DNA of 49,105 nt, taken from an uncultured Clostridia bacterium (GTDB lineage: Bacteria; Bacillota; Clostridia; Christensenellales; UBA1242). Made by a program: the position numbers and the translations under genes. Positions 19,207-48,768 of this stretch are shown here, one piece after another; positions within the stretch are counted from its first letter, which is position 1; each line of letters begins with the position of its first letter. Location of the stretch: assembly GCA_944377315.1 (NCBI GenBank), contig CALWEM010000018.1, forward strand, positions 1 to 49,105. Direction: 5' to 3'. Under the pieces are notes generated by a model. The model saw nothing but the letters and a program-made list of their open reading frames with translations, ran no database searches and was not told the origin of the DNA.

Positions 19207-19235
19207 TTGACAAAAGATTTATGAAGAAATAAAAT
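19207..19235 (+). promoter_or_regulatory. Promoter of the GT4 glycosyltransferase
   Basis: TTGACA (19207-19212), a 17-base spacer and TAAAAT (19230-19235). The gene therefore has its own strong promoter even though it is out of frame in this sequence. Confidence 0.8.
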
Positions 19236-19260
19236 AAAAAAAGATTAAAAGGAAGGTAAT

Positions 19261-20432
19261 ATGGAAAAAAGTTTGAACATCGCATTTTTCACTGACAACT
19301 TCTTTCCAGGCACTGGCGGAACAGAAAATGTCATCAGAATAATGTCGAAAATCTTGACAAGCGGGGGGGGAGTGACCGCGTAAAAATTTACTGCCCTGAC
19401 TATCATAAGAAAAATCAGAATGAAATTGACATTCCGGTTTTCAGAATACCGAGCATAAGATTGTCGGACAGTGACCATATTGCACTGCCAAGTTTATACA
19501 GAAAGAAACTTGAAAAAGATTTAAGAGAATTTAATCCAGACATCATATATTTCACCACCGGTTCGGGAATGGCGAAGTGGGCACTTAAAATGGGCAAGAA
19601 ATTGGATGTGCCAGTTGTTGCCACAATACACACAAAGTTTGATGAAGCGTGGTATGACTCTTGCAAAAGCCACTTAATCACTTTTTGTATGATAAAATCG
19701 CTGGCAAGAAAGATGAACAGAGCGTTTGCTGTGACAACCGTTTCCAAAGACGCAGCCAAAACTTTGCAAAGATATGGCTATAAAGGTGAGCCAAAAGTTC
19801 TTATGAATGGTTTTAATGCTTCCGAATTCTCTGTCACACCTTGTCTTGAAGACAAAAAAGGAAAGTTCACATTTTTGTTTTGCGGAAGATTAATCAAAGT
19901 GAAACAAATTCAATTTTCACTCAAATGCCTTGGAAATATCAAGAATAAATATAATTTCAACGACTTTAATTTCTGGATTGTGGGTGACGGAAACTATCGC
20001 AAAAAACTTGAAAAATTGGTGAAAAAATATAACCTTGAAGAAAATGTCAAATTTTTTGGTTATGTTGGCAATCGTGCACAACTCAATGGCATATATTCCG
20101 TTGCCGACCTATTTTTGTTCCCATCCAGTTTTGACACCGACAGCCTTGTTGTGTTGGAAGCCAAACCTTGTCATTTGCCAGTGCTTTCACTCAAAAATTA
20201 TGGCTGTGGTGAGAGAATTGAGGATGGCGTGACTGGATTCTTGAGCGATTTTGATGAAGAGAGTTTCACAAAGAAGATTTGGGAAATATTAAACAACAAA
20301 CCACTTCTTGAAAAGGTGAAAAAGAATGTCGACAAACTTCGAGCAGACACTTGGGAAGAAGTGGTGGCAAAATATCGTCAATTCTTCCTTGAAAAAATTG
20401 AAGAATACAAAAAATTGAAGAAAAAGAAATAA
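19261..20432 (+). CDS. GT4-family glycosyltransferase, out of frame at a G8 tract (probable phase-OFF)
   Basis: ATG 19261 follows AAGGAAGG. The first 34 codons give a textbook GT-B start (LNIAFFTDNFFPGTGGTENV), then the frame passes through eight G and stops at a TAA six codons later. With nine or six G the frame continues as SDRVKIYCPDYH and runs to 20432, giving about 390 aa, the normal length for GT4 enzymes. The C-terminal half has the expected FLFCGRLIKVKQ, WIVGDG, KFFGYV, and the E-x7-E region as DSLVVLEAKPCHLPVL. It would transfer a sugar from a nucleotide donor to a cell-surface glycan; donor and acceptor are unknown. Promoter, ribosome site and downstream reading frame are all intact, which argues for reversible switching rather than decay. 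A homopolymer sequencing error is the main alternative. Confidence 0.88.
19363..19370 (+). repeat. G8 homopolymer inside the GT4 gene
   Basis: Eight consecutive G in coding sequence of a genome where runs above G5 are otherwise absent from this window except at 31434. It falls 35 codons into the gene, between the first beta-alpha unit and the second strand, where a loop tolerates one extra glycine. One base gained or two lost restores the frame. Confidence 0.95.
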
Positions 20433-20449
20433 AAGGATTTTAATATAAT

Positions 20450-20474
20450 AAACCACCTAATTTTGGTGGTTTTT
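20450..20474 (+). terminator. Terminator between the GT4 gene and uvrC
   Basis: An 8-bp stem (20450-20457 with 20465-20472) and a TAATTTT loop followed by T on the plus strand. It is AT-rich on both flanks, so it may also serve the convergent uvrC transcript. Confidence 0.75.
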
Positions 20475-22518: not shown

Positions 22519-24837
22519 ATGTTTGATTGGATTGGTGATTTCTTTTTAGAATTATTTAACTTAATTCCAAAGTTAATGTATCTAATGAACACTTCTCTTT
22601 TGAGTTTGGTTGATTTCCTTCAACTTTTGTTCAGAAAGTTGGCAGGTCTTGATATATATTATGTTGATGGAGAAAAGGTTAATGGTGACTTGTTGACCAA
22701 CTTTATTGGCGGGATTTTGGGTATTGACATCAACGGGCTGGGTGAAACGGCACAAAAGACAGATTATTCCATTCTCTCGACAGTTTTCTGGTCTTTTGTT
22801 ATTTTCGGTCTTATCATTCTTTTCATTTCCACCATTGTGGCGATAATAAAAAGCCATTATTCCTATAATGAAAAGTCAGCAAAAGGACCACTTCCAATCG
22901 TGGCAACAGCGGGCAAAGCGGTTATCAATATGGTTGCAGTGCCAATCATTGTGATTTTGGGGTTGTATTTAAGTCAGGCGATTTTGAACGCTCTTGACCA
23001 AATCACTTCAGTTGGTTCGGACGACTTATTAACCTTGTATGGCTCGTCAGAAGAGGGAGCGTCTCAAGAATATGGTGTGGCGCAACTTGTGCAGGGCATA
23101 ACCGATTCACAGGGTAATGAAACTTACATATTCTATGATATGTTTGGCTGGACAGGAAAAATTTGGTATGGACTGGGAGTGATTGACTTTGGAATTGCAA
23201 CAAGAGAAGAAATGAGTGGCGTGGCGGCAAGAACGCAACCATTCTCTGGCTCGATGTTCAAAGTGGCGGCGTATAATGCTAATCGTGTCAGAAAACATCA
23301 ATTCACATACAGCGACAAATTCACCGGAAATGGCGGTGGCGGGTTAAACCTTTTCATACAGCACGACAACAGTGACGCCAAACTTGCCACAATGGTGGAT
23401 GAAGCGTTTGCCAACTTCTTGCACCTTGACAAATCATATGATATGGTGTATGGTATCGGCAATTTCACATCGGAAAGATTTTTCACCACTTGGACAACCA
23501 CACACGCTTGTGCTTTTTCCAAGTTTAATGTCGGTTTGGTTTGGTATTATTATAATCTTTGGGACTATAACTTCGTTGTCGGCTTTGGTGCCGTGATTGT
23601 TTGCTTGTCCATTTTCTTGAACATCATAATGGGCTTGATGGCAAGACTTGTGATGGCACTTGTGCTCTTCCTTGTGATGCCACCACTTGCCGGTCTTGCT
23701 CCGCTGGATGACGGCAACGCCTTCAAGGGCTGGACGAAGAACTTTATGTCGCAAGCCTTGATGGCATATGGAGCGGTGGTCGGAATGAACCTTGTTCTGC
23801 TCATACTGCCGTATATAAATGGAATTGACTTCTTCAACATCCCGATGGTGGACATCTTGGTGCAAACACTCTTTGTCATTGTTGGTTTGGTCACCATCAA
23901 AGCGGTGATTGCAACATTGTCGCAACTCATTGGGGCAGCGGACGCCAACAAGACGGGTGCAGATATGCACGATGAAGTCAAAGGAACAATGATTAAGGCT
24001 GGTTTGCAAACAGCAAGATCAGCAATGGTGGCTGGTGGAGTAACCAAAAACCTTGTCCAAGGGGCAGGAAAACTTGCAATCGGAGCAGGAGCAGCGGTTG
24101 GAAATCTTGGAATCGCTGCAGGTAATGCCGTCAGAGGGGCTAGAGCCAACAGAGAAGCCAAAAAAGCAGAAAAAGAGTTGTCAGATGCACAACGGGCAGT
24201 CAAGAAAGACAAGATGATTCAAGAAATGTCAAGAAAAGATTTGTCACAAATTGACAAAAAAGAGTTTGACAAGATAGCAAGTGACAATGGCTTGTCAAGA
24301 AAAGAAGCAAAGCAAATGTGGGCATCAAAGAGAAGAGCAGAAAAGAATGCTAACTCTGCAACCGCTGACAAGACGAGTTACAAGAATCGTGCAGACTTTA
24401 TGCGACAAGATTTGGCAAAATCTGATGAAGCATACAAAAAAGAATATGACAGAATGCAAAGCTCACGAAACAACATTGAACTGGGCAGAGCAAGAAGGGC
24501 AAATGAAGCACTCTTGAAACAAAAAGCAGTTACTGCTCGAAATGAAGCCAAAATGAGAAATGAAAGAACAATGAGAAGACTTAATATGGCAAGAGATAAT
24601 GCTGTTGGCGGGTTGAGAGATGCATACACATATGGTGGCAGAGCTGTAAGAAGTTATACTGGAGGATTATCGCAAGTTACTAAAATGGGATTAAGTGCTA
24701 TATGGGATGAAAAGACCGAAGAAATGTTTAAAAAAGCAATAGTAGCTGTAGGAATAAAAGATAAAAAACCAGATTATTTGGAAGAGATCTATAGAGGCTT
24801 AAAAAATGCAGGAGTAATTAAGGTGGGGAAAAAATAA
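22519..24837 (+). CDS. VirB6/TrbL-like polytopic membrane protein with long basic tail
   Basis: A 772-aa protein. N-terminal hydrophobic segments occur near residues 90-113 and 130-155; an external loop of about 200 residues follows; four or five more helices lie near 350-480, including the stretch MALVLFLVMPPLAGLAPLDDG...FKGWTKNF, which resembles the conserved core of VirB6/TrbL conjugation channel proteins and the Mbov_0396-type ICE proteins of mollicutes. The last 270 residues are cytoplasmic, Ala-, Lys- and Arg-rich and probably coiled coil (AKKAEKELSDAQRAVKK...). In conjugative systems this protein forms the inner-membrane pore and would be flanked by VirB4 and coupling-protein genes. 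None is present; the gene has its own promoter and terminator. So either an orphan channel or a different membrane function; the family assignment is from pattern memory. Confidence 0.7.
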   Translation: MFDWIGDFFLELFNLIPKLMYLMNTSLLSLVDFLQLLFRKLAGLDIYYVDGEKVNGDLLTNFIGGILGIDINGLGETAQKTDYSILSTVFWSFVIFGLIILFISTIVAIIKSHYSYNEKSAKGPLPIVATAGKAVINMVAVPIIVILGLYLSQAILNALDQITSVGSDDLLTLYGSSEEGASQEYGVAQLVQGITDSQGNETYIFYDMFGWTGKIWYGLGVIDFGIATREEMSGVAARTQPFSGSMFKVAAYNANRVRKHQFTYSDKFTGNGGGGLNLFIQHDNSDAKLATMVDEAFANFLHLDKSYDMVYGIGNFTSERFFTTWTTTHACAFSKFNVGLVWYYYNLWDYNFVVGFGAVIVCLSIFLNIIMGLMARLVMALVLFLVMPPLAGLAPLDDGNAFKGWTKNFMSQALMAYGAVVGMNLVLLILPYINGIDFFNIPMVDILVQTLFVIVGLVTIKAVIATLSQLIGAADANKTGADMHDEVKGTMIKAGLQTARSAMVAGGVTKNLVQGAGKLAIGAGAAVGNLGIAAGNAVRGARANREAKKAEKELSDAQRAVKKDKMIQEMSRKDLSQIDKKEFDKIASDNGLSRKEAKQMWASKRRAEKNANSATADKTSYKNRADFMRQDLAKSDEAYKKEYDRMQSSRNNIELGRARRANEALLKQKAVTARNEAKMRNERTMRRLNMARDNAVGGLRDAYTYGGRAVRSYTGGLSQVTKMGLSAIWDEKTEEMFKKAIVAVGIKDKKPDYLEEIYRGLKNAGVIKVGKK

Positions 24838-28447: not shown

Positions 28448-28796
28448 TTGAATGGAATATACAAAACTGCCGATTTGGTGCTTTTTCCGTTAGATTTTGA
28501 AGCGGACAGTTTGGTGGTGCTGGAGTCAGCGTCTTGTGGTTTGCCAACATTGGCACTCAAAAACTATGGCTGTGGAGAGCGAATTGAAGACGGCGTGACT
28601 GGATTTTTGAGCGATTTTGATGAAGAGAGTTTTACAAAGAAGATTTGGGAAATATTAAACAACAAACCGCTTCTTGAAAAAGTGAAAAAAATGTCGACAA
28701 ACTTCGAGCAGACACTTGGGAAGAAGTGGTGGCAAAATATCGTCAATTCTTCCTTGAAAAAATTGAAGAATACAAAAATTTGAAGAAAAAACAAAA
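28448..28796 (+). pseudogene. Truncated copy of the GT4 glycosyltransferase (C-terminal third)
   Basis: It encodes only the C-terminal donor-binding part of a GT4 enzyme, from LNGIY (aligned to 20077 onward of the complete gene) through DSLVVLESASCGLPTLALKNYGCGERI to the end. From about 28553 the DNA is nearly identical to 20189-20430, with mostly silent or single-base differences, while the preceding 100 bases have diverged more. One base is missing in an A run near 28690 (GTGAAAAAAATGTC against GTGAAAAAGAATGTC), so the last 30 codons are out of frame. No N-terminal acceptor domain exists, so it cannot be an active enzyme. A promoter-like sequence and AAAGG lie just upstream. It is probably a duplication remnant or a silent donor for gene conversion. 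Confidence 0.85.
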
Positions 28797-28819
28797 AAGC
28801 AATCATTGATTGCTTTTTT
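28793..28819 (+). terminator. Bidirectional terminator
   Basis: Six A, GCAATC, a 3-base loop, GATTGC and six T (28793-28819). It works in both directions and separates the truncated GT4 copy from the convergent gene at 28825. Confidence 0.85.
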
Positions 28820-30957: not shown

Positions 30958-32259
30958 ATGGGAGCGTGGGATATTATCAATATTATTGTTGGAATTGTTA
31001 TGGGCTTACTTATGGCGTATCAGTTCTTATATATCATAATAGGGCTTTTCAAGAAGAAAAAATTTAAGGACACCAAAACAGAATCCACTTATGGAATACT
31101 AATTGCAGGAAGAAATGAAGAACTTGTGATAGGGCAACTTCTAGACAGCATCAAAAAGCAGAATTATAACCTTGAAAAAGTCAAGATTTTTGTGGTTGCC
31201 GACAATTGTGATGCTGGCGACAAAACTGCTGAAATTGCAAGAGAAAAAGGTGCGGTTGTCTATGAAAGACACAACAAAGATGAGATTGGAAAAGGTTATG
31301 CACTCAATTTCCTTTTGCAAAACATTGCGAAAGATTTTCCGGAATATGACCCGGATGGCTGGTTTGTTTTTGATGCTGACAACATTTTGGATAAAAATTA
31401 TATATACGAAATGAACAAGGCCTTCAATTTTGCGGGGGGGGGTAATGTTATAACCTCTTACCGAGCATCAAAAAACTATGGAAAAACTTTGTTCTCAATG
31501 GGTGCTTCTGTTGGTTTTGTGAGAGAATGTCGCTTTCTGCACACACCGCGAACGGTTTGCAATATGTCAACACATATTTCAGGAACAGGATTTTTAGCGC
31601 CAAAAGAAGTTTTAAATCCTAAATTAGGCTGGAAATACACCTGTATAACAGAAGATTTGGAATTTTCTTGCGACAATTTGACGAAAGGTAAAAAAATCCT
31701 ATATTGTGATGATGCGATATTTTATGATGAACAACCAGAAACTTGGAAACAAACATACAGACAAAGGATGCGTTGGCAAAAAGGTTCGTATTTATGCTGT
31801 AAGGCATTCACATTTTCGTTTTTGTTAAAATTATTCAAAACTTTGAAATTTCCATTTTATGATTTTCTTATGTTTTTTGCTCCGTTTCCAATTCTGTCAT
31901 CAAGTTGGGCGATTGTCAATGGTTTTTATGCAATTATCGAAAGTTTTATCAAACTTTTGATGGGCGCATCCTTTTTCCAAGAGATGGCATTTTTGCTTCT
32001 TGCTCTGGCACAGACTTTCATCCTTCTATATTTAGGGATGTTTGCATATGGCTCAATTGCAGTTTTGAAAGATTGGAAAAGAATAAAAGCAACCAAAAAA
32101 GAAAAAATTTTGTCGATGTTTGCATATCCAATATTTATGATTTGCCTGATTCCAATCTGTTTCCTTGCTTTATTTAAAAAAGTGGAATGGAAACAAATTA
32201 AACACACCAACAGTGTTGATATTGAAGACATAAATAAAAGTGCTGAAAAAACAAAATAA
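30958..32259 (+). CDS. GT2-family membrane glycosyltransferase with in-frame G9 tract (phase-ON)
   Basis: A 433-aa processive-type GT2. A membrane helix at about 8-30, then the GT-A domain: GILIAGRNEE (UDP-sugar-binding start), VVADNCDAGD, DADN with the metal-binding Asp pair near 141, a TEDLEFS segment containing the catalytic acidic ED, and QRMRW, the Q/RxxRW motif of synthases of beta-linked polysaccharides. Three or four C-terminal helices follow (about 290-415). It probably builds or exports a surface polysaccharide. Codons 159-162 fall in nine consecutive G; the encoded Ala-Gly-Gly-Gly sits in the loop before VITSYRASKN, where relatives have a shorter AGY-like turn. Losing or gaining one G truncates the enzyme within the catalytic domain. 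GAGG precedes ATG, and the gene lies nine bases after glyS in the same transcript. Confidence 0.9.
   Translation: MGAWDIINIIVGIVMGLLMAYQFLYIIIGLFKKKKFKDTKTESTYGILIAGRNEELVIGQLLDSIKKQNYNLEKVKIFVVADNCDAGDKTAEIAREKGAVVYERHNKDEIGKGYALNFLLQNIAKDFPEYDPDGWFVFDADNILDKNYIYEMNKAFNFAGGGNVITSYRASKNYGKTLFSMGASVGFVRECRFLHTPRTVCNMSTHISGTGFLAPKEVLNPKLGWKYTCITEDLEFSCDNLTKGKKILYCDDAIFYDEQPETWKQTYRQRMRWQKGSYLCCKAFTFSFLLKLFKTLKFPFYDFLMFFAPFPILSSSWAIVNGFYAIIESFIKLLMGASFFQEMAFLLLALAQTFILLYLGMFAYGSIAVLKDWKRIKATKKEKILSMFAYPIFMICLIPICFLALFKKVEWKQIKHTNSVDIEDINKSAEKTK
31434..31442 (+). repeat. G9 homopolymer inside the GT2 gene
   Basis: Nine consecutive G in coding sequence, the longest G run in the window. In this sequence the frame is maintained, so the gene is ON. 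It is the counterpart of the G8 tract at 19363. Confidence 0.95.
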
Positions 32260-35229: not shown

Positions 35230-35258
35230 TTGCGAAAAATCCAAAATAATTGTATAAT
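35230..35258 (+). promoter_or_regulatory. Promoter of the giant surface-protein gene
   Basis: TTGCGA (35230-35235), a 17-base spacer and TATAAT (35253-35258); the transcript would start near 35265, 34 bases before the ATG. Confidence 0.75.
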
Positions 35259-35298
35259 TATCTTGTTTAATATAACAAATAATTATGAAGGGGTAGGT

Positions 35299-38200
35299 AT
35301 GAAAAAGAAAAGAAGAGCATTAGCAACTTGGAAAGTTGTCCTAATAACTATCGCAGCCATAATTGGTCTTTTGGGCGTTTCTATCTTTGTGATGTTCCTT
35401 TTGGGATATTTCAATGAAGAAACGATAAATCCTGAAAGTATAAGTTATGTTCAAGATGAGAATTATAATGAAGCCACTGGACTTTATGAAGTTTCAGATG
35501 ATTTTTATATGACCATCACAACTGCGACTGAAAATGTCACAACAAAAAAGATAACCCTTTCTCTTGGTAACACTGTGGCAGAAAATGGTTATCTTGACAA
35601 CGGCATTATCAAAGTGCCACAAGTTGTTTATCTCAACACCCCTTTTCTTGTTGAACTTTCCACCTCTTTTAATGATGAAATTGGAATGGAATACATAAAT
35701 GGCGGGGTTGCTTCTCTTTGTGCAACTTCTGACTATCGCTTGATTCGTCCGATATATGCCAGCATTGCAGTCGATGTTCCGGTTGAGAGTGTTACTGGTT
35801 ATATTTATGACACTGGTGACGGCGAAAAAACTGAAATTGGAGATAACCAAGTCGTTGTCGGCTCAAACTTCAAAGTGGAAGTGGAATTTTCTCCTGAAAA
35901 CAGTGGATATATGTTCAGTAGTGACAGCGACCAAAAACTTGTTTTCTATGAAACAACTTCAAGTTACATATCCTTTGACTATGAAACACAAACTTTCACT
36001 GCAGACAAAGTGACCGCACTGGGCTATAATGACACCATTGCTGTCTACACCTTCTCTTCTGCCAAATATCAAAATGAGTTTTTGAGTCAAAATGGTGATT
36101 TTGAAAGTTTTGAAGAGATGAATGAGTCCGCTTTGAGATATTTCAAGAGTGAAGAAAACCAAGGGCGTGATGTATACAAAACTTTCAGTGTCGATGTTGT
36201 TGTGAAAGATGTCACAGTGGACAGTTTTGAAATTGCAAATGATGACTTCACTGGAATTGTGGACAGATATTTGACTCTTGCTTCAAGTTCCACATCGTCA
36301 ATATTTGACGGAAATTTGGGTGTGGTTATCAAAGATAATGAAGGGACAAACATCAACTCTGTTTATGCCGGGAATGTGGGTATTGCTCTCACAAGCGACA
36401 TTTCAAACACCAAAATTGTGGGCGAAAATGTGATGCGTGTCCAAGTTGTCACAAATCAAGAAACTGGCGAAGTGACATATCAAATTTTTGAAGAAAAATA
36501 TGACAGCTCAAAGTCATATTTGCCAACAATTGAAGAGTTTGAGAAAAATTATTATTTCATTCTTCCAAACACTTCAGCTTCAACAAGTGCTTCAAACTTT
36601 AGTTATAAAATATCTTCAAATGTTGAAGAAGTGACAGAGTTTAAGCTGGCACTTTTTGTGGAAAGTGAAGACGGTTGGGATGTTTTGGGTGGAAATTTTG
36701 ATATCAATTCTCTTCAAACTTTAACCATCACTTTTGAAGAAAATGCTGAAAAAAATGTCTATTGGAAAGATAATGAAACTGAAAGATTTATGCTCTTCTT
36801 CGACAGTGACGAAAATGTTTCTGACTCCATTGAACTTTCCGAGCAAATCAATGTGCCAAGTGAAAATGTCTATCAAGAAGTGAGATATTTCTTCTATTCT
36901 CCAACTGGCGGAAGAATTGATGGAATTGAAAATGTTTTGAGTTATAAGAGTGTTGTGCAATATAATGTGGGCGAAGATATCACACTTTCAATGCTTGACT
37001 CGTCTGCCACAACGGTGTATTTGTATGAACTTTCCAGCACCGCACTGACTGTTTTGAATGCAACAAGCGAAGATATCTATATCATTTTTGCCACAGTGAA
37101 GTCGAACGCTGATGAAGTGGTGTATGTTGACGAAGACGGAAAATATGAAATTGTTTACACCAGCAGTCCTCGCGCGCTTGTGGTTTCACCAACTTTGAAG
37201 TTTGATGATTTGACTTCCAATGTTTCCTTCTCTTCGGCAATGGAAAATAACAGATTTAATATTCAAGATGAAGAAGAAAACAATTATCTTTATGTTCCAT
37301 CAATTTTGTATACAACAGAACAAGAAAGTGACACATTTAATATCACCATAAGCTTTAACAATCAAAGCGGAATGTTCACAGCAAATGACCTTCAAGATTT
37401 ATATAATGCTGGAACAAGCGATTTGAGCGAAACAGATGCGGGTTATATCAAAGTTGAATTCCGAGATAGAGATGGAAATCTTGCGACCTACACTGATGAA
37501 GGTGGGAATTTGTTAAACTACTTTGAAATCGGCGCAATGGAATTTAGCGATGTCAATGGAACGATAAGTGGCACTGCGAGTGTTTCAATTTCTCGAAAAT
37601 TTGAAAATACTGACGGCAATCAATTCACGCCACACCTTGTTTACAACAATGGCAGAACGACCAAAACAAAGGCAATTGAAATTTCATATAACAATGAAAC
37701 ATACTCGAATTTCACTTTGTATGCTCAAAAAGCGGAATCTTCACAATATCAATTTATCTATGACAACGACACGAGATACAGTTTGGATTCCATAATTTCT
37801 GTCAAAATTGACAGTTCTGGCATTCAAACCATCACTTGGGGCAACACTCAAATTCTTGATGAACAAGACAGTTCTGCAGTTTCAAAACTTTCTCAACTTT
37901 TGAACACTGTTATCTTTGACCAATACGGCAAAATTATATACACAGAAGCTGCATCGTTTAGTTTGGTGGAAGAAACTAACAAAAATTATATAAACATTGT
38001 GGACAATCAAATTCGAAGTTTTAATTCCACAAATTCAGCAAAAATATCCACATCTTTGAATGCTAACATCAATTCTCTTTTTGGGACTGTTCCAGATGAA
38101 GTGTCGCCAGGACAAGTGAATTTCGAAATTGAAAGTGCTGGCGTGACGAAGGTGGAATATGCCACAAGCGAATTTTTGACCGCAGAAGAAACCTATGAAG

Positions 38201-41200
38201 AAGGTGACAGAGCACAAGGTGTTGTCAGAAAATACTTAACTCTCAACGAAACTGTTTCACTCAACAGTTTAATCAAAGTGTATGTTGGCGACTCTGATGA
38301 TGCTTCTCAAAACCTTCAATTCTCACTTGCTGATGAGTTTTTGGCAGAATTTTCAAGCGAAGAACTTGACGCTTTATTCTCCAACCCAAATGTGACTGAT
38401 TCTGCTGGAATGTTAAATCTCTTAAATAATGGCGAAAAGGTGAGTTACACTTCTGCTCACATCTCACAAATCCAAATTGTTTCAATTTTTGCAAATGATT
38501 ATTTTGACCTTGTGTTTGATGTGACAGACCCAAATAATATTGTCAACATTCAATTGACTCTTCGAATTATGCCAAACATCAAAAGTCAAGATATCATCAG
38601 TGAATACTACACTCCATATATTGACTATTTGACCTATGGCAATGAATCGACCACCAAAAAACTGGCATTTGGAAATGATTATATTTCCTTGAACACATAT
38701 TTGCCAATCAGTTACGACAAGACAAGCAGTGGCGAGAACTCGCTTGAGTGGACACGAAATAACACAATTTTGGTGGTTAACGGCACAGTCGTTGGCGCAG
38801 AGTTTGTCAATAATGTTCGTTTGGCGGAAAATGATGAAGGAGAAATTTGCCTTCAATTTGCTGATGTCAAATCTTTGAGCACTGTGGAACTGACGATATA
38901 TTATAATCGTCAAAACAACTTCTCTCTTCGAATTGATTTGGGCTTTGTTGTCAATCCAAACTATTTGATGGTGCAAAAAGAAACAAATGTCTATCTTGAC
39001 GAACTTGCAGATGAAAGTAACACGACTGCAAAAAACCTTTCCACATATTATGATATTTATGTGGCAAAAGATTATATAAACAGATATATTCTTAACAGCA
39101 CAAACGAAGATGTTTCACCAATTGGCTTTACTGGCGTTTCCAATATTTCCTTTGTTCAAAATGGCATTTTGGCTGTGGAAAAAACTGCTGACGGACAAAT
39201 TCTTTCCAAAAATGGTGGATTTGTGGCAAACTTGGGCATCAAACTTGACTCATCAATTTCACTTCAATATCAAGAACAAGGTGCAGACAACACTTCTTGT
39301 CAATTCATCCTTCTTGACAGTGACAAAGAAATTTTGTCGCTTGCTTGCTCCACACTTGATTTCCAAGTGGGTTATGCTGAAACAGTGAGCAAAATTGTCA
39401 ATATGTTTTTCAGCGAAGAAGATGGTGTGAGTGACGAAGGAACAACCTATGATATTTTGGACAATAATGGCGAATATGTCCTTGTGCTTGTTGAAAATGG
39501 CAGTTATATGGTATACAACGACTGGTCGGTGGAAACTGCCAGTGATTTGATTATCTTCTCTGGTTCAAGAATCAGCATCAAACAATTGCCGGGATTCAAT
39601 ATCAACGCAAATCTAACTTTCAGCCGAATTGACCAAAACGAAAGTGGTGATGTCAATGATATCATTTATGTCGATGTGCGTTTGACGAAAGTTGGGTTAA
39701 TCTATGTTAACTATGAAAGAACAAATGAGGATGGCACAGCGTTTGGATTTGATGATATTGTCACAAATGCCACAAGCGAAGTGGAAATTCAAGAATTCAT
39801 CAACAATATGGCAGAAAAAGGAATTTATGATTCCTACAAAGCGGGCGGTGAATATCAAGTGGTGTATGTTGATGACGGCGAAAGCGAAGTGACAGATGAA
39901 GACTTTGGCTTCCACTATATTTCAAAACAAGGTAATACCATCCGCTCCACTCTTGACATATATTCAATAACAACTGGCTATGAAGATTTGGTGACACTTG
40001 GAAAAACTGGTGAAAGCATCACCGACAAAATCATCTTGAAATCTTTGGTTGAGCCAAATGAAGATGTTTATTTGGTTTTGCGACTCACACTCTCGCAAAC
40101 ATATCAAGGTAATAATATTACTTATGTTATGTATTATAGAATAAAGATAGAATCAAATTATCAACTTGCCGAAGTGACTTATCCATACAGCGATGGTGCA
40201 GAATATATCACCGAGCAGGAATTTGATATCGACTTTGAAGAAGTGTTCACCGACAAAACTTCTGCCACAGCAAATATCGGAAAGAAGAGATTTGACACTC
40301 TTCAAAATGTGGATGGCACTGAAATTGCCAACTTGTCAGCAAAATATACTATATATGATGTTGTCATCAATGGTGAAGGATTTGAAGACTATTCACAATA
40401 TTTGGAACTTAATCTTGATGAGGCAACTGGCGTTTTGAAAGCAAAAGTGCTGACAGCGGACGCTCAAATTGTTGTGAGAATTGCCAAAAATTATTATATT
40501 AACGACATTTTGGTGATAAGGTCGGAAAGACTTTACACAATTGTTTATAACGGCGAAATTCCAGAATATGTTTACTCTGCGACCGGTGGAAAGGTCAACG
40601 GAGATGTGACCATTCAAGAAGATGATGGCGATTATGTGGACGAAATTATGGTTGGCGGAGAATATGAATATAAAATTTCGGTTTCAGAAAAAATTGGCGA
40701 TGTAAACAACCCAATCAATGATGTTTATGCACACTTCACTTCCATCAAAGAAGGTTACAGCGAAGATGATTATTTCTATCAATTCACAAAACTTGTGGAC
40801 GGCAACAAACTTTATGAAGTGACGAAAGAAGAAGCATCTGGTGAAGTTAACTATATTCTTGGAGAAGAGATGACAGTTGGCTCTTTAGATGGAATCAAGA
40901 GCGGAAAATATATTCTTCTCAACGAAGAAAGTGACGAAATCACAAATTATGCTATTATTGACGCGGAAACTGATTTTGAAATTGGCGAAGAAAATGTGAG
41001 TGGTTATGTTGTCAAATTTAGTGGTCAAGAGATGTTATATTTCCTTCCAAAAGAAAATGTGGGATATTTTGATTTCAGAAATTCTGGCACAAATGGCGAA
41101 TTCATTCTTGCATTCTTCACAAAATCTTCTATTCTTGAAAATGGCGATTTCTCAATTGGAATATACACTCAATATCTCAATATCTTCAACATATATTTCA

Positions 41201-44200
41201 CTTTGGATGGCGGATATGATATCACATTTATCTCTGATATTAATGAAGCGAAAGCAAGCGGAACAAATTATGATATCAGCGACTTTATTTCAACCATCAA
41301 AGTGGGCGATGATGGTGCTGACATAAAGGATGAATTCAAATTCTCACTTTGCGATGACAGCCTTTCAAAATATATCAAAATTGAAGACAAGACTTTTATT
41401 GTGGCACACCTGCCAACAAGCCTTGACAATGTGAAGATAAAAGCAGAACACTTCAAATCTCACACCTATCCTGTTTTGAATTTGGAAAGTGGCGACAAAA
41501 TATATAAAGAAGGCGTGGATGCTGAAACAGACACAAATATTATGGAAGAGTGGCTTACGATTTCCGAAACTGACCTTGCAGGCGAAGAAGTTTTGAAAAT
41601 TTCTGACTTTGTGTTTGAAGAAGTTTCAGTTGGTGCTGGTGAAGAGGCAATCACATACATCAAAATTGTGCTCAACGAAGAGATAACAATCGGTGAAGAA
41701 TTGGTGACAGAATTCTTTGTCAACAAGGCAGAAAAGGGTGTTGAACAAGAAACTGTGACCGACACAAGCCCAAGTTATCAGTTCTATTTCACGCTCAATT
41801 TCCTTCCAACCACCAAACTCACACAAGATTCGCTTGTGAATTATCAAGAAAGCGAAGAAAAGGAAGGTAATCGTTATTCGCAAGATGTGATTGAACTTGA
41901 TTTGAGCAACACGGCTTCATACCTATATGAAGAAATTAGAAATCAATACACAAACTCAATAAGAGAAGGTGAAACCTTCACCTTTGAAGGCGGAGAGAAC
42001 AACAAATCAATCACTCTTGAAAACGTCGGCGAAGATGGTCAATATGAACAAAACTTTGTGGTGGAATATCGCTTCTATGGCGAAATTATCTACACTTTCA
42101 ATGTGAAATATATATACACAATTCACAAAAATGTTTCATTAACTCCAAACTATCCAACGCCAGACGGCAGGACACAACTTGAAGAAGAATATATCGACAA
42201 CAACACCACGATTGAAGATTTCTTCAACACACAAGCAAACTTCACAACAAAGGATGCAAAATCAAGAGTTTACATTGAATGCACAAACAAAGGCAATGGA
42301 GAAAATTATGTCTATGACTACACTCTTGACATCACAGAAATTGAAAATGTCACTTTGCTTGTCAATGATTCGACTTCTTTCTCTCAAACTGCACAAATCA
42401 AGACCGGCAAATTGGACTGTGAAAATGATGTTGTCAAAATGGAAAACTTCAAATTCAACTTCAAATTAAACAACACCGACAGAGCCGGCAGTGTTCTGTT
42501 CACACTTTTGGTCAACAATGTTCCAACCACCTACAAAGTTATGGTGAGTGGCAATGATGTGGTCACAGTGGAATCCAATTCAATTATTCGCGAACAAGAC
42601 TATGAAAGTGTGTTTGCAGAAGATATTGCAGGATATGAGACCAACAATTTGTTTGGCTATAATCGACTTTTGAAATATAATTTCCTTAACAGCGCAAGTG
42701 GCACATATTATTTGAGATTTACAAAAGGTGCGAACTACAAAATTCAATCAGTCACCGTTTCTTCAAAAGGCGTGGACAACATTTTGGATATGGGCAATTC
42801 ATATGAAGGCTACACTTTCCAAGGCGTTTATTCAAGTCAAGGTGATGCAGTTTCAGAATCAAAACCACTCAACTGGAATCAATACTTTAAATATGAGCCA
42901 TATTTGACCAACAGAATTGTTCTCTTATATTATGGTAACATTGTTTCAAATGATGTCGCATCAATAAAACTTGCCACAAGAAAAAATCCAAAACTTACTT
43001 ACCAAATCAAAGATGGCATAAAATTGCAAGAAAGTTATTTTGTGCGATTTGAAAATGGAAATGAGTTCAAAGTTTTGGAAGTTAAGTTTGAAGACTATGG
43101 CTCTCAAAAAGTGACAATTGAACTGGATGCAAATTTGCAAGGGTATTCCTATGTTGGAACATATACAAATGAAAGTGATGCAAATGAAGGACAAAATAAT
43201 GTTGGAATTGTCGGAGAAGGAAGTTGCATTTTTGAAGAAATTTCACTTTCTGACCAAAATGCTGGAATAACCTTTGAAGATATGAAAGATGTCAAATTTG
43301 ATTCAAACACAAAAGTTGACACCACAAATGAATATTACATCGGCTATATTCTCACAAGAGAAAAAGTTGCAAAAACAAGAAATGATGAAACAACAACTGA
43401 AGAGATAACTCACAGAACAAACTATTCATATCGTATGCAACTCAATGTCAGATTTGAAGTTAGACAAGATGCAAGAACAACATCAGAAGTGATTCTCGTG
43501 GGCAGTGGCAACAACGGCTACACAGCGATTTTGAGCCTTATGGGACTTGGAATCAGAGATGCAAAAACTGGCGAGTATCTCACTTCAAACGATATTGGAG
43601 CGACACGACGACTTAATATTAAAATTTATGGTATTGATATTGCACTTAAAGACAATCCGGCAGACCCATACAACAACTTGACTCAAGAAGCAATTGCAGT
43701 GCACAATGAACTTCTTGAAGATAACAAAACTGGACTTGCTCCTATATATATGACAGACAATGAATGGAAAGATTTTGGAAACAATGGCTATATTAACCCT
43801 ATTGACCAAACAAGAAACTATGCTTCTGTCAATGCGTATGATGATTATGGCAGTGATTACAGCATTCTCCCAAGAGGTTCAGGCGTGGACGGCAATGATG
43901 TTATGTTCCGAATTACTTACACAACCTATCTTGACAGTAAAGGAACGATTCCAATCACTGTGAGTGCAAACTTGAGATTCACAATCAAGCAAGATTATGA
44001 CATTGACTTCAGAAGAAGTGCCGACAGTGAGCAATATGGTCAAGGTGAGATTATTGAACTTGAAGACGGCACTCTTGCCGAATCTAACACATCAGCAAAC
44101 CCATACATCATCTCAAAAGACAGGACTGGTCAACACTATCTTTACAATTTTGGCAATAATGCTATTTATCCAATTTTGAAAGTGTTGAAAGGGCAAAATA

Positions 44201-47200
44201 ACATCAATGAAGCATACGCTTTTGATTATTCAATGGTGATAAATTCTGCCGAGTCTGAATATAACAGCAAGTTTGACAATTTGGTTCTGGATGGTTGGGA
44301 TAAAACTGAAAGCAAATATTCCCACGGAAAAGTGGCTCAAAATAGAGACATCTATTTTAAGGTTAACCCTTTGGCAATTGGCAACAGAAGTTATTATATT
44401 GACGCCATTGACAATTATGGCTACAAATTGAGAATATATTTCCAAGTTCAAGCAAGCATTGAACCGAATGTTAACAAAATTTCCAACACCATAATTTCTG
44501 AAGGATCAACCGCTCAAATTGGTGTGGCATTCAACAAAGTCGACTTTGCAAGTGGCGAAGTGACAAGTGAAAATTCTGGGGCGTTTGGATATGATTTTGC
44601 TTACACCATTGACTGTGGTGGACAAATTGCTAACGATGATAAACCAACTTTGAATATTTCAATCTTCAACGAACAATCTGGCTGGGGGTCAATGAAAACA
44701 CCCCTTGATTCTTCTGATAATAAATATTTTGATTATTATTATGGTTACACCATTCTTGAAAATGAAGGCGAAACTCAAGTCCAAAAAACTTATTTAACAA
44801 AGGATTTTAATACAGTTAAAGGACAGACAGGTCTCACATCATTCAATCTATATCTTAAAACAAGCTCACTTAACGGGAAGACGCAAATGGTGTTTGGCGT
44901 AATGCATCAAGGAAAAGTTGTTCAGCCAAATGGAATAAATCGTTCCACAGGCGAGACTCCGGAATATTCCGATGAAGCCGAACTTCAATTGACAATGGGC
45001 GGATTTTCAGTGAATGTTTATGAGAATTTAGGTGGAAATGTTGTGATTCCAGCAATATCGGATGCTTCGCTTAATAGTGGCGAATTCAGCGAAATTTCGG
45101 AAAGCAACATTCAAGATATTGTTGTTTCAAGAGTTTGGTTTGAATATAAAGGCGAAAAGGTTGAAGAAGCTGTCATTGAAGAAGGTGGAATAAAACTCAT
45201 TTCTGGTGACGCTTCATACAAGAACATATATCAAGACGGCGTTATTGATGTTGTTGAAACCAACAAAGATTTTGAAGTTCCACACTTCTCTGGTCAACTT
45301 TATGGCACTTCCTCAATGCTTGAAAATGTGGTTATGGTGGTTGAGCTTGAAAAAGTGAACGACACAACACAAGAAGGTGACACAACACAAGAAGGTGACA
45401 CGGCACAAGTCAGACAAACCATAAACATTCAAAGAAGCACATATGGCGCTTTGGAGAAAAATCAATTCAAAGACGAAGAAAAACTTGGACTTTCAGCGTT
45501 CAATTCTTCCTTCAATGAAGATGGCGATGACAGTGGGGAAAATTCAGGTTCAGTGACAATATATAACGACACGGTTGAAATTCAAATGGAAGCAAAATCT
45601 TCTCTTGAATATGCCATTGTGAAAGCGGGTGAAACTCAACCTACAGAATACACAAAACTTAACAACACAAGAGATTACGCTCACAAAGAGCAGATAAGAA
45701 TTTCCGACACAACCGACTATATTGAAAGTGACAAAACGCTTGCAACTCAATATAATGTTTATATTAGAAATAATACTGGTGAATATAAAGTTAAATACTT
45801 CAGCGATATTGTGGAAAAGGAAACAGGGCAAGATTATTATTCAATCACCCTTGGAGTGTTTGCAGAAAATGACCAAAATGGCATCGAACTCAACATTGAA
45901 GATGTGAGTGAAATCAGTGAGTCAACTGGCTACACCACAAGAAATATATACACGATTGTTGAAGTGGGGTATCCAACACAAGCACAAGAAAAAGAAACAG
46001 AGTATTACTTGCAACAAAATTCTGTTCAAGTTTATCCACTTTTCACTTCAATCACTTCCAACAGGCAAACAGCTTTTGAATATATCATTGATGACTATTA
46101 TCAAGTGGACACTGCGGACGGCACTTACTATGTCATTTCGCCAACAAGTTGGGCAAGTGATGATTTCTTAAATTATTTCCACAATAATGAAAGTGTTTCC
46201 CAAAGTGAAAACAAAATCAGTTCAAAACCATATTATTACACATATGAAATTGAAGCAGGTGCAACAATTGACGCCAATGGTGTCATCACAACAAGCACGA
46301 ACTTCAAAATCCAAGCGGACACAATTGTGCTTGATGTGTATATGCGTGTTTCCGGCGTTGACGGATTGTATGACGACCCAGACGGCAGATTGCTCACATC
46401 CATTCCGCTTCAATTCACCTTGAGAGCTTCGACGAATAGTGAGAATAATAATAAATATGAAGTAGGCACTGCCGGAGCGTATTTATTTGGAGGTGACATT
46501 GAATCTCTCATTGTTTTAAATGCGGGTGACATTGTCTATGGAAAGGGTAGAGCGAGTGCAAATAATCCAAGTGATCAATTAACTAATGCTGCTGATGCTG
46601 ACAGTCTTGGGACATATCTTGTTTCTCGACACTCCAAATTCACTTATGATGAGTGTTTTGGCGAAGTGGGAAAAGTGGAAAATTCTTCAAATCGCAGTTA
46701 CAGAATAATTAAAGAAGGCGATGATGATGAGAAGTATATCACTCACAACGCACTTGTTTCTCACACATATGATTCGGCTGGAAAATTCACAAGCGTTTTT
46801 GTGGAAAGTTATCGACTTGTTAATGAAAACAATGTGGACATCATTGAGTATGTGCTTAAAACGGCAGATATTATCGTCTATGACGCGACAATGCCGACTT
46901 TGAGAACAGCTGAATACACAAAGTCAACCGAAATTCAAACAACCGCTATTGATGGCAATTCGTCATTCGTTTATGACGCTGACATCCACACTTTGACATT
47001 GAACCATTCAGGATTAAGTGCAACGGAAGAGATAAGTGGTAATTTCTATGACCTTGAAACTGGCAAGCAAATTGTTGCTGACGGCACAAAAGATATAACC
47101 GCTCAACAGATAAAATTCAGTGACTATCTCAATGCAACCACTTCTTCAATCACAACAAAAGATATTATTGTTGAAAAAGATGGAACAATCACATATTATC

Positions 47201-48768
47201 GCATCAACTTCTTTGTCTACACAAAGACAATGGAAGAAAAGAATATTGCTTGGAGAACAAATGCATCCTATTATTTGTCTTCTCTCTTGGGTGCTGGCAA
47301 GTTCTATGAAATTGACAACTTCAAAGAAACAGAGTTGACTGCCAAGTTCTATTCTGTCAATGAAAATGAGAATGAAAAAGTGGAATACATTTTCGCTCTT
47401 CAAAACGGTAATCTTGTCAAATACAAACTCAATTTCTGGCTCTATTCGACTTCTTCCACATTGTCGACTTGGGTGACAAGTGGAGAGAATGCTGTGGGAC
47501 TTCAAGTGGCTGGCGAGAAAATTGAAGACGGTGAAGTGGCAACACAAACCAATGCGAACGCCACAATATTTGATATGCTGGGCATTAAAGATGTTGTCTA
47601 TGATGAAGAAAGTGGTGTCTTCACAAATGGTGATGTGACATACAAAATTTACACTGTTGAAAACGCTTCTGAACTTGAAGAAATAAGTGAAAATTCCTAC
47701 ACCCTTCAAGAATATGAAGATGGCGAAGAAATTGCTTGGAATTCTCTTTCTCGCATCTTCTTTGTGGCAACCACAAATGGCGGAAGAACCACATATCAAA
47801 GATTTGAAGTTCTCTTCTATAAATATGTGAAGGAAGTTGATGTCAATGCTGTGACGACATACAACAATCAATTTATGCTTCGAGAATTGGACAGCATAAT
47901 AAGAAAGGGAATTGTTGACAACACTGGCGAAATCACTTGGTGGAAATATAATGAAGCCAACAGAATCTTGACTCAAACTTCATATATTCAAATCAACAGT
48001 GACACAGTTCAAAATGGAAAATATATTGACAGCGAAAACTTCTTTGTGCTTGTTTCACAAAAATATTACAAAGTCAATTTGAATCTTGTTTGCGCACAAG
48101 TGAAAAACTCCTTCAATGTTTTTGTGGACACAACAGAAATGGAAGATTTGACCGCGGTTGCTTTCGATAATGTGAAACTTTTGACTTTTGACACAACCGG
48201 CGAAGTTGTGCAAGGCAACGAAAACTTGACGACATATCTTGCTGAAAGTTTGGGCTTTGGAGTTGTGGATGAAATTGTTTTCTATGACTATGACCCAAGC
48301 GGAGCAAACTATCAATTTGACAGAACAGAAGTTGAAAATGTTGACTTAAGTGGAGCAAACAAGCCATATGTTGTTTCAAAAGACTATCTCATCAAAGTTT
48401 CATATCAAGTCAACACGAGAAATGTTGAAGCGTATGCAATGGTGGAAATTAACTTCATTGTGCAGGAGAGTCCAATAAATTCAAACTATCTTTTCCTTGG
48501 TGAAGGAAGCGGAAGTTTTGACCTTAACACCATTTCTTCACAAGTGAGAACACGACTTCAAAATGTCATCATTCCAGTCGCTTTCTTTGAAGATGAAAAT
48601 GGAAACCAACTCTTGTCAAGTCTCACACTTGAAGATTCTGTTGAATATCTTTTGAAAGAAATCTATGTCAAAGTCAATTTTGAAGGCGAAATCAAATATG
48701 AGAAAATTTTGGTGCTTGTGAAAAACAATGGTTATCAGAAGACAACACAGGAGGGACAACTTGATTAA
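35299..48768 (+). CDS. Giant membrane-anchored surface protein (4489 aa)
   Basis: One uninterrupted 13.5-kb frame. ATG 35299 has GAAGGGGTAG before it; the frame upstream covers the promoter and is not coding. Residues 1-11 are basic (KKKRRA), 12-36 are hydrophobic without a lipobox, and the remaining 4450 residues are Asn-, Thr-, Ser-, Glu- and Asp-rich with dense beta-strand patterns, so a type II anchor or uncleaved signal with a huge extracellular part is likely. No LPXTG, S-layer homology, choline-binding or C-terminal membrane segment is seen, and no Ig-like or cadherin repeat is recognised with confidence. Cysteines are few. A short Thr/Gln/Glu tandem repeat lies near 45361. Probably a structural, adhesive or barrier protein of the envelope. 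Translation passes into a cardiolipin synthase gene through an 8-base overlap. Confidence 0.85.
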   Translation: MKKKRRALATWKVVLITIAAIIGLLGVSIFVMFLLGYFNEETINPESISYVQDENYNEATGLYEVSDDFYMTITTATENVTTKKITLSLGNTVAENGYLDNGIIKVPQVVYLNTPFLVELSTSFNDEIGMEYINGGVASLCATSDYRLIRPIYASIAVDVPVESVTGYIYDTGDGEKTEIGDNQVVVGSNFKVEVEFSPENSGYMFSSDSDQKLVFYETTSSYISFDYETQTFTADKVTALGYNDTIAVYTFSSAKYQNEFLSQNGDFESFEEMNESALRYFKSEENQGRDVYKTFSVDVVVKDVTVDSFEIANDDFTGIVDRYLTLASSSTSSIFDGNLGVVIKDNEGTNINSVYAGNVGIALTSDISNTKIVGENVMRVQVVTNQETGEVTYQIFEEKYDSSKSYLPTIEEFEKNYYFILPNTSASTSASNFSYKISSNVEEVTEFKLALFVESEDGWDVLGGNFDINSLQTLTITFEENAEKNVYWKDNETERFMLFFDSDENVSDSIELSEQINVPSENVYQEVRYFFYSPTGGRIDGIENVLSYKSVVQYNVGEDITLSMLDSSATTVYLYELSSTALTVLNATSEDIYIIFATVKSNADEVVYVDEDGKYEIVYTSSPRALVVSPTLKFDDLTSNVSFSSAMENNRFNIQDEEENNYLYVPSILYTTEQESDTFNITISFNNQSGMFTANDLQDLYNAGTSDLSETDAGYIKVEFRDRDGNLATYTDEGGNLLNYFEIGAMEFSDVNGTISGTASVSISRKFENTDGNQFTPHLVYNNGRTTKTKAIEISYNNETYSNFTLYAQKAESSQYQFIYDNDTRYSLDSIISVKIDSSGIQTITWGNTQILDEQDSSAVSKLSQLLNTVIFDQYGKIIYTEAASFSLVEETNKNYINIVDNQIRSFNSTNSAKISTSLNANINSLFGTVPDEVSPGQVNFEIESAGVTKVEYATSEFLTAEETYEEGDRAQGVVRKYLTLNETVSLNSLIKVYVGDSDDASQNLQFSLADEFLAEFSSEELDALFSNPNVTDSAGMLNLLNNGEKVSYTSAHISQIQIVSIFANDYFDLVFDVTDPNNIVNIQLTLRIMPNIKSQDIISEYYTPYIDYLTYGNESTTKKLAFGNDYISLNTYLPISYDKTSSGENSLEWTRNNTILVVNGTVVGAEFVNNVRLAENDEGEICLQFADVKSLSTVELTIYYNRQNNFSLRIDLGFVVNPNYLMVQKETNVYLDELADESNTTAKNLSTYYDIYVAKDYINRYILNSTNEDVSPIGFTGVSNISFVQNGILAVEKTADGQILSKNGGFVANLGIKLDSSISLQYQEQGADNTSCQFILLDSDKEILSLACSTLDFQVGYAETVSKIVNMFFSEEDGVSDEGTTYDILDNNGEYVLVLVENGSYMVYNDWSVETASDLIIFSGSRISIKQLPGFNINANLTFSRIDQNESGDVNDIIYVDVRLTKVGLIYVNYERTNEDGTAFGFDDIVTNATSEVEIQEFINNMAEKGIYDSYKAGGEYQVVYVDDGESEVTDEDFGFHYISKQGNTIRSTLDIYSITTGYEDLVTLGKTGESITDKIILKSLVEPNEDVYLVLRLTLSQTYQGNNITYVMYYRIKIESNYQLAEVTYPYSDGAEYITEQEFDIDFEEVFTDKTSATANIGKKRFDTLQNVDGTEIANLSAKYTIYDVVINGEGFEDYSQYLELNLDEATGVLKAKVLTADAQIVVRIAKNYYINDILVIRSERLYTIVYNGEIPEYVYSATGGKVNGDVTIQEDDGDYVDEIMVGGEYEYKISVSEKIGDVNNPINDVYAHFTSIKEGYSEDDYFYQFTKLVDGNKLYEVTKEEASGEVNYILGEEMTVGSLDGIKSGKYILLNEESDEITNYAIIDAETDFEIGEENVSGYVVKFSGQEMLYFLPKENVGYFDFRNSGTNGEFILAFFTKSSILENGDFSIGIYTQYLNIFNIYFTLDGGYDITFISDINEAKASGTNYDISDFISTIKVGDDGADIKDEFKFSLCDDSLSKYIKIEDKTFIVAHLPTSLDNVKIKAEHFKSHTYPVLNLESGDKIYKEGVDAETDTNIMEEWLTISETDLAGEEVLKISDFVFEEVSVGAGEEAITYIKIVLNEEITIGEELVTEFFVNKAEKGVEQETVTDTSPSYQFYFTLNFLPTTKLTQDSLVNYQESEEKEGNRYSQDVIELDLSNTASYLYEEIRNQYTNSIREGETFTFEGGENNKSITLENVGEDGQYEQNFVVEYRFYGEIIYTFNVKYIYTIHKNVSLTPNYPTPDGRTQLEEEYIDNNTTIEDFFNTQANFTTKDAKSRVYIECTNKGNGENYVYDYTLDITEIENVTLLVNDSTSFSQTAQIKTGKLDCENDVVKMENFKFNFKLNNTDRAGSVLFTLLVNNVPTTYKVMVSGNDVVTVESNSIIREQDYESVFAEDIAGYETNNLFGYNRLLKYNFLNSASGTYYLRFTKGANYKIQSVTVSSKGVDNILDMGNSYEGYTFQGVYSSQGDAVSESKPLNWNQYFKYEPYLTNRIVLLYYGNIVSNDVASIKLATRKNPKLTYQIKDGIKLQESYFVRFENGNEFKVLEVKFEDYGSQKVTIELDANLQGYSYVGTYTNESDANEGQNNVGIVGEGSCIFEEISLSDQNAGITFEDMKDVKFDSNTKVDTTNEYYIGYILTREKVAKTRNDETTTEEITHRTNYSYRMQLNVRFEVRQDARTTSEVILVGSGNNGYTAILSLMGLGIRDAKTGEYLTSNDIGATRRLNIKIYGIDIALKDNPADPYNNLTQEAIAVHNELLEDNKTGLAPIYMTDNEWKDFGNNGYINPIDQTRNYASVNAYDDYGSDYSILPRGSGVDGNDVMFRITYTTYLDSKGTIPITVSANLRFTIKQDYDIDFRRSADSEQYGQGEIIELEDGTLAESNTSANPYIISKDRTGQHYLYNFGNNAIYPILKVLKGQNNINEAYAFDYSMVINSAESEYNSKFDNLVLDGWDKTESKYSHGKVAQNRDIYFKVNPLAIGNRSYYIDAIDNYGYKLRIYFQVQASIEPNVNKISNTIISEGSTAQIGVAFNKVDFASGEVTSENSGAFGYDFAYTIDCGGQIANDDKPTLNISIFNEQSGWGSMKTPLDSSDNKYFDYYYGYTILENEGETQVQKTYLTKDFNTVKGQTGLTSFNLYLKTSSLNGKTQMVFGVMHQGKVVQPNGINRSTGETPEYSDEAELQLTMGGFSVNVYENLGGNVVIPAISDASLNSGEFSEISESNIQDIVVSRVWFEYKGEKVEEAVIEEGGIKLISGDASYKNIYQDGVIDVVETNKDFEVPHFSGQLYGTSSMLENVVMVVELEKVNDTTQEGDTTQEGDTAQVRQTINIQRSTYGALEKNQFKDEEKLGLSAFNSSFNEDGDDSGENSGSVTIYNDTVEIQMEAKSSLEYAIVKAGETQPTEYTKLNNTRDYAHKEQIRISDTTDYIESDKTLATQYNVYIRNNTGEYKVKYFSDIVEKETGQDYYSITLGVFAENDQNGIELNIEDVSEISESTGYTTRNIYTIVEVGYPTQAQEKETEYYLQQNSVQVYPLFTSITSNRQTAFEYIIDDYYQVDTADGTYYVISPTSWASDDFLNYFHNNESVSQSENKISSKPYYYTYEIEAGATIDANGVITTSTNFKIQADTIVLDVYMRVSGVDGLYDDPDGRLLTSIPLQFTLRASTNSENNNKYEVGTAGAYLFGGDIESLIVLNAGDIVYGKGRASANNPSDQLTNAADADSLGTYLVSRHSKFTYDECFGEVGKVENSSNRSYRIIKEGDDDEKYITHNALVSHTYDSAGKFTSVFVESYRLVNENNVDIIEYVLKTADIIVYDATMPTLRTAEYTKSTEIQTTAIDGNSSFVYDADIHTLTLNHSGLSATEEISGNFYDLETGKQIVADGTKDITAQQIKFSDYLNATTSSITTKDIIVEKDGTITYYRINFFVYTKTMEEKNIAWRTNASYYLSSLLGAGKFYEIDNFKETELTAKFYSVNENENEKVEYIFALQNGNLVKYKLNFWLYSTSSTLSTWVTSGENAVGLQVAGEKIEDGEVATQTNANATIFDMLGIKDVVYDEESGVFTNGDVTYKIYTVENASELEEISENSYTLQEYEDGEEIAWNSLSRIFFVATTNGGRTTYQRFEVLFYKYVKEVDVNAVTTYNNQFMLRELDSIIRKGIVDNTGEITWWKYNEANRILTQTSYIQINSDTVQNGKYIDSENFFVLVSQKYYKVNLNLVCAQVKNSFNVFVDTTEMEDLTAVAFDNVKLLTFDTTGEVVQGNENLTTYLAESLGFGVVDEIVFYDYDPSGANYQFDRTEVENVDLSGANKPYVVSKDYLIKVSYQVNTRNVEAYAMVEINFIVQESPINSNYLFLGEGSGSFDLNTISSQVRTRLQNVIIPVAFFEDENGNQLLSSLTLEDSVEYLLKEIYVKVNFEGEIKYEKILVLVKNNGYQKTTQEGQLD
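45361..45408 (+). repeat. 18-base tandem repeat inside the giant gene
   Basis: Two exact copies of an 18-base unit (45361-45378, 45379-45396) and a partial third encode DTTQEG twice, then DTAQ. It is in frame, so copy-number change would lengthen or shorten the protein by six residues. Confidence 0.85.

Follow-up and report, generated by a model that had tools for sequence, protein, structure and literature searches.

A poly-G tract in a GT4 glycosyltransferase gene of an uncultured Clostridia bacterium: a probable phase-variation switch among 16 such tracts in the genome

A survey of the poly-G/C phasomes of Campylobacter with PhasomeIt found tract lengths to peak at 9-10 Gs, with the fraction of ON genes in draft genomes lying near the neutral expectation (PMC6321876). 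The genome considered here resembles those of Campylobacter in that its poly-G tracts are found on the coding strand, mostly in genes for surface modification, and at many loci of a small genome. It differs in belonging to another phylum, in possessing mismatch repair genes, in having eleven genes with the putative switch that encode secreted surface proteins, and in having many relatives with tracts situated in promoter spacers. In Bifidobacterium breve, a Gram-positive gut commensal, replication slippage has been measured at a sortase-pilus G-tract that separates the secretion signal from the remainder of the surface protein (PMC9187656), an arrangement shared by the surface-protein genes described below. 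Unlike that high-GC member of the Actinobacteria, in which two pilus clusters are concerned, the present genome is of low-GC Clostridia and contains 16 tracts, among them tracts associated with glycosyltransferases and promoters.

The first-pass annotation of this locus had considered poly-G switches to be not commonly described in low-GC Gram-positives. This statement has to be trimmed, since gsmA of Mycoplasma agalactiae has been described (PMC12103780). According to that paper, which cites earlier work, gsmA carries a coding poly-G in a gene needed for surface polysaccharide, in a relative of the low-GC Gram-positives, but it is a single locus in an unrelated lineage, and the function of the GT4 gene examined here is deduced from its sequence. 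In Helicobacter pylori sabA (PMC2715451) and at Neisseria loci (PMC5953494), repeats in coding and promoter regions alter the expression of surface proteins in a similar manner, with the tracts of sabA being CT and T rather than G. Unlike sabA and the Neisseria loci, a single kind of protein is here found with the tract within the reading frame in some genes and within the -35/-10 spacer in others. Among the open-licence papers searched, none was found to describe poly-G phase variation in such Clostridia. While the mechanism is already known, its scale and its setting in a commensal-type Clostridia lineage appear to be unreported in the literature searched.

The window analysed (the whole stretch of 49,105 nucleotides) contains a GT4-type glycosyltransferase gene that includes a run of eight Gs (Table 1). 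The claim that this run places the gene out of frame was borne out by the sequence and its translation: when read with G8 from the ATG at 19261, the gene product consists of 34 codons followed by GGGVTA and a stop at 19381-19383, while the glycosyltransferase frame runs across and past the tract without a stop, terminating with its own stop at 20430-20432. The promoter, ribosome binding site and full-length frame were also found to be intact, as had been noted. Pfam comparison of 19461-20429 identified both the Glycos_transf_1 (E=1e-31) and Glyco_transf_4 (E=1e-12) domains, confirming membership of the GT4 family. No NCBIfam equivalog scored over its cut-off against the GT4 product, the top matches being BshA and glycolipid synthases, and thus of the earlier designation as a surface glycosyltransferase the family assignment stands, while the acceptor, and with it the word surface, is presumed. 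At 28494-28798 (+), 8 kb downstream, the 3' end of GT4 recurs over 305 bp at 88% identity, without the N-terminal part; this partial duplicate is possibly a remnant or a gene-conversion partner. Also present in the window, at 22519-24837, is an ORF for a protein resembling the MMCAP2_0566 / Mbov_0396 conjugation transmembrane proteins of integrative elements.

Table 1. Features of the GT4 and GT2 genes of the window, and tracts of the same genome situated outside clear reading frames
Feature	Position	Strand	Basis or remark
Sigma-70-type promoter of GT4, TTGACA-17-TAAAAT	19207..19235	+	Consensus match at 11/12 positions
Ribosome binding site AGGAAGG, upstream of the GT4 ATG	19250..19256	+	Read directly in the sequence
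5' part of GT4 as read with G8, 40 codons, then stop	19261..19383	+	Reading-frame translation
G8 tract, putative switch, at OFF length	19363..19370	+	Exact extent by direct sequence reading; the relative L065 has G9 here and is in frame
Remainder of the GT4 frame, open over 356 codons and closed by a stop	19362..20432	+	Translation; Pfam
Terminator-like hairpin, 3' of GT4	20450..20472	+	Sequence
GT2-type membrane glycosyltransferase, ON, 10 bases past glyS	30958..32259	+	Translation, profile matches
G9 tract within GT2, in frame	31434..31442	+	Orthologue comparison
Promoter TTGACA-16-TAAAAT with G8 in the spacer	Contig C27, before a secreted-protein gene		GLUG-like sequence, by eye
Promoter TTGACA-15-TACAAT with C9 in the spacer	Contig C6, before a membrane-protein gene		
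G8 of unclear placement	Contig C20, L020:2973-2980		Similar sequence about 150-350 bases away

The closest relative of GT4 found, L065 of MAG BRZ_BP__bin16 (counted once, as L181 from a second collection is the same genome), is 90% identical and carries G9 at the corresponding position, which puts it in frame. Distant homologues (48-63%) were found to be without the tract, its position being occupied by a short turn, KG-D or LG-H; in GT4 the tract codes for Gly-Gly-Gly, giving a loop two residues longer than these turns. In a predicted model of the GT4 relative (mean pLDDT 79), tract residues 35-37 are positioned between a helix (20-34) and a strand (40-46), and are predicted to form the loop leading from the first helix to the second strand of the N-terminal domain. 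The broken frame of GT4 could also be that of a plain frameshift pseudogene, the tract being merely the site of a fatal indel in a locus to which the partial 3' copy 8 kb away ascribes a history of rearrangement. This reading is very unlikely, however, given that the 356 codons contain no further stop or indel behind an intact promoter and ribosome binding site, that the break falls exactly within the tract, which the 90% identical relative has in frame, and that the same state is seen in eight of eleven surface-protein genes of the genome, all with long downstream frames.

Orthologues of the GT2 gene in four species were compared at one site. The tract is G9 and in frame in both the window and genome G273, and is out of frame in G269 (G10) and G275 (G7), where the frame is open on both sides of the tract despite the OFF length. 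No tract was found at the GT2 site in more distant orthologues, and a GT2 homologue considered to be tract-bearing (L147) was rejected, as the tract counted for it is located away from the GT2 site, which has none. An automatic ON/OFF tally over the relatives was left out of the evidence, its start-codon rule being crude. Length at the same site was thus found to vary between related genomes with the frame kept on both sides, for GT4 (G8 and G9) as well as for GT2 (G9, G9, G10 and G7), so that one fixed in-frame length among relatives, which the first-pass annotation had named as evidence against switching, is refuted. These differences are between species; they establish that tract length moves and do not give the rate at which it does so.

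Chance expectation was derived from a first-order Markov model built from the window, which predicts approximately 2.3 G/C runs of at least eight bases per Mb and 0.45 of at least nine. Runs of lengths 1 to 5 in the window numbered 12058, 2507, 280, 32 and 3, a fall of approximately five- to elevenfold per added base, with lengths 6 and 7 being empty before a single run of 8 and a single run of 9. The codon GGG accounts for only 8% of glycine codons in the window. On the genome (1.01 Mb), a survey by pattern searches and inspected stretches identified 16 tracts of at least eight Gs against about 2.3 expected, with Poisson probabilities of approximately 4e-9 for tracts of at least eight and 4e-15 for those of at least nine. 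Homopolymers therefore occur beyond chance, by this count and by the gap in run lengths at 6-7. The lone G8 is only mildly surprising and constitutes weak evidence, while the whole set of 16 tracts is strong evidence.

With respect to location, two of the 16 tracts are found in glycosyltransferase genes (both in the window: G8 of GT4 and G9 of GT2), eleven in genes of secreted surface proteins, two in promoter -35/-10 spacers, and one is unclear, meaning that 15 of the 16 lie where a unit change in length could switch expression (13 reading frames and two promoter spacers). The eleven tracts of the surface-protein genes are situated at codons 30-39, in genes whose products begin with a signal peptide (MKKFLLCLFSFLFISTATLGSGFLFAGCNQTHFEQ in the case of L016), and are followed by sequence for long proteins, several of which contain GLUG or Listeria-Bacteroides repeats. 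Among the 13 tracts within coding sequence, four preserve the frame and nine break it, which is the expectation of free drift among three frames. Eight of the eleven surface-protein genes are out of frame, each with a long open frame downstream; the downstream frames of OFF genes extend for 182-829 codons, with several being ended by a contig edge. Contigs C5 and C7 (L010 and L012) start at one shared point within near-identical surface genes and have the tract at the same coordinate; the assembly is therefore taken to have broken at a shared repeat, and the copy number of such genes may be underestimated. The window also includes a single open frame of 4512 codons at 35230-48768, and a link between this ORF and the switched genes was discarded, as its product (4512 aa) was found to be dissimilar to the switched surface protein with which it was compared.

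All tract lengths are those of consensus contigs, in which a short-read consensus can be off by one. As homopolymers of 8-10 are error-prone and the lengths are derived from such contigs only, the OFF length of GT4 could be a sequencing or assembly error, with the true tract being fixed and in frame. While the exact length at any one tract could suffer in this way, error is unable to account for the existence, location or excess of the tracts; it would have to strike most coding tracts (nine of the 13 being out of frame), and the GT2 orthologues of four separate assemblies have lengths of 7, 9, 9 and 10. Error is accordingly regarded as the least probable of the alternatives weighed here.

The two promoter-spacer tracts of the genome precede the genes given in Table 1, and the product of the C27 gene is, judging by its sequence, probably of the same kind as the frame-switched surface proteins. 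The tract on contig C20 has neither a clear reading frame nor a promoter, and there is no tRNA there. The idea that the unclear tract or those of the promoters belong to an RNA element was rejected, as comparison with Rfam returned no match for L011, L020 or L022. Long homopolymers can cause transcriptional slippage, and RNA polymerase slippage or programmed frameshifting on a fixed G8 could yield some full-length GT4 protein from an unchanged DNA sequence. The open frames retained by OFF genes are compatible with this, and it may occur as a minor leak atop DNA switching. As the main route it is disfavoured and judged to be unlikely, because the same tracts are found in promoter spacers, which are untranscribed, and because the DNA length itself differs among orthologues.

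A mismatch-repair-deficient, hypermutable genome was also considered as the source of instability. Profile search found mutS1 over its cut-off in 59 of 61 genus genomes and mutL in 60 of 61, with both present in the genome carrying GT4. This candidate was therefore ruled out, and the slippage rate is not expected to be raised by loss of mismatch repair. Slippage at the tracts would have to proceed without such loss, as is the case in Neisseria.

The G8 tract of GT4 is thus very probably a contingency (phase-variation) switch operating by slipped-strand mispairing, a reading favoured by the enrichment of tracts, their placement, the division of their frames into random thirds and the same-site differences in length between species. 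The first-pass description as a probable phase-variation switch is supported and had understated the case, as the genome contains 16 such tracts and the pattern extends across the genus. Random on/off switching of this type is best known from pathogens, Campylobacter among them. Single Gs would be gained or lost by the tract as it is replicated, through slipped-strand mispairing. With a fitting length GT4 would be read through, the tract then coding for a glycine-rich loop, while with other lengths, such as G8, translation would end after 40 codons; in the consensus cell of the assembly, GT4 would accordingly be OFF and its neighbour GT2 would be ON. The same mechanism would act in the genome-wide set, where the tracts of the eleven secreted surface proteins lie just past the signal peptide, and in two further genes the length of the tract in the promoter spacer would tune the distance between the -35 and -10 elements. 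From the sequence evidence, we infer that tract length changes within populations, that such change is reversible, and that expression of the glycan or surface antigen would track the tract.

Comparison across the phylum, made as counts of genomes with a match, identified tracts of at least nine Gs in 51 of the 61 genus genomes sampled and in 225 of 299 genomes of the phylum, indicating that their presence alone is nothing special. The lineage is set apart by how many tracts it has, where they lie and their occurrence in promoters. A poly-G run flanked by TTGAC and TANAAT was found in 27 of the 61 genus genomes (reversed-pattern control, 0), in 40 of 198 genomes of the order (control, 0) and in 12 of 298 genomes from elsewhere in the phylum (control, 2). 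Among 94 distinct sequences of this promoter-spacer set, with tracts of G8-G11, the spacer measures 15-20 in 91 and peaks at 16, and in nine flank-identical groups within genomes the number of Gs is the sole difference. The arrangement is porA-like, with a tract between the -35 and -10 elements and spacing around the 17-base optimum, and is a property of the relatives and of the C27 and C6 promoters, not of GT4 itself. In genome G043, promoter tracts are situated ahead of genes for proteins of approximately 600 aa or longer, and one of these proteins could be aligned with the frame-switched L016 at 32% identity (579 columns, E=4e-59). The same kind of surface protein thus carries the putative switch within its promoter in one species and past the signal peptide in another.

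Taken with the genome-wide set, these comparisons make it likely that an order of uncultured commensal-type Clostridia possesses poly-G phase-variation repertoires comparable in scale to those of Campylobacter, in genomes that are small and proficient in mismatch repair, with surface proteins having acquired the switch in two places, past the signal peptide or in the promoter spacer; the label commensal is drawn from the nearest MAG being that of an uncultured Clostridia bacterium. A 2025 review counted among the open questions why genomes rich in phase-variable loci seem to be restricted to pathogens, and whether this reflects database bias (PMC11868660). The lineage offers a ready test of this question, comprising dozens of species whose genomes measure about 1 Mb and contain anything from 0 tracts to dozens; switching could be seen directly in its metagenome reads. 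Genes for surface proteins and glycans in such bacteria would often be called pseudogenes in assemblies, and may only be switched off.

Variation is absent from some tracts. In genome G032, 17 promoter matches (L081) share a near-identical TTGACAAAAAATGC-G8-TANAAT with exactly G8 in every one, and are possibly a regulon or a dispersed promoter rather than variable switches. Poly-G was also observed 2-4 bases ahead of the start codon in some relatives (L029, L051 and L115); this is possibly a third placement, at which length could alter the spacing of the ribosome site.
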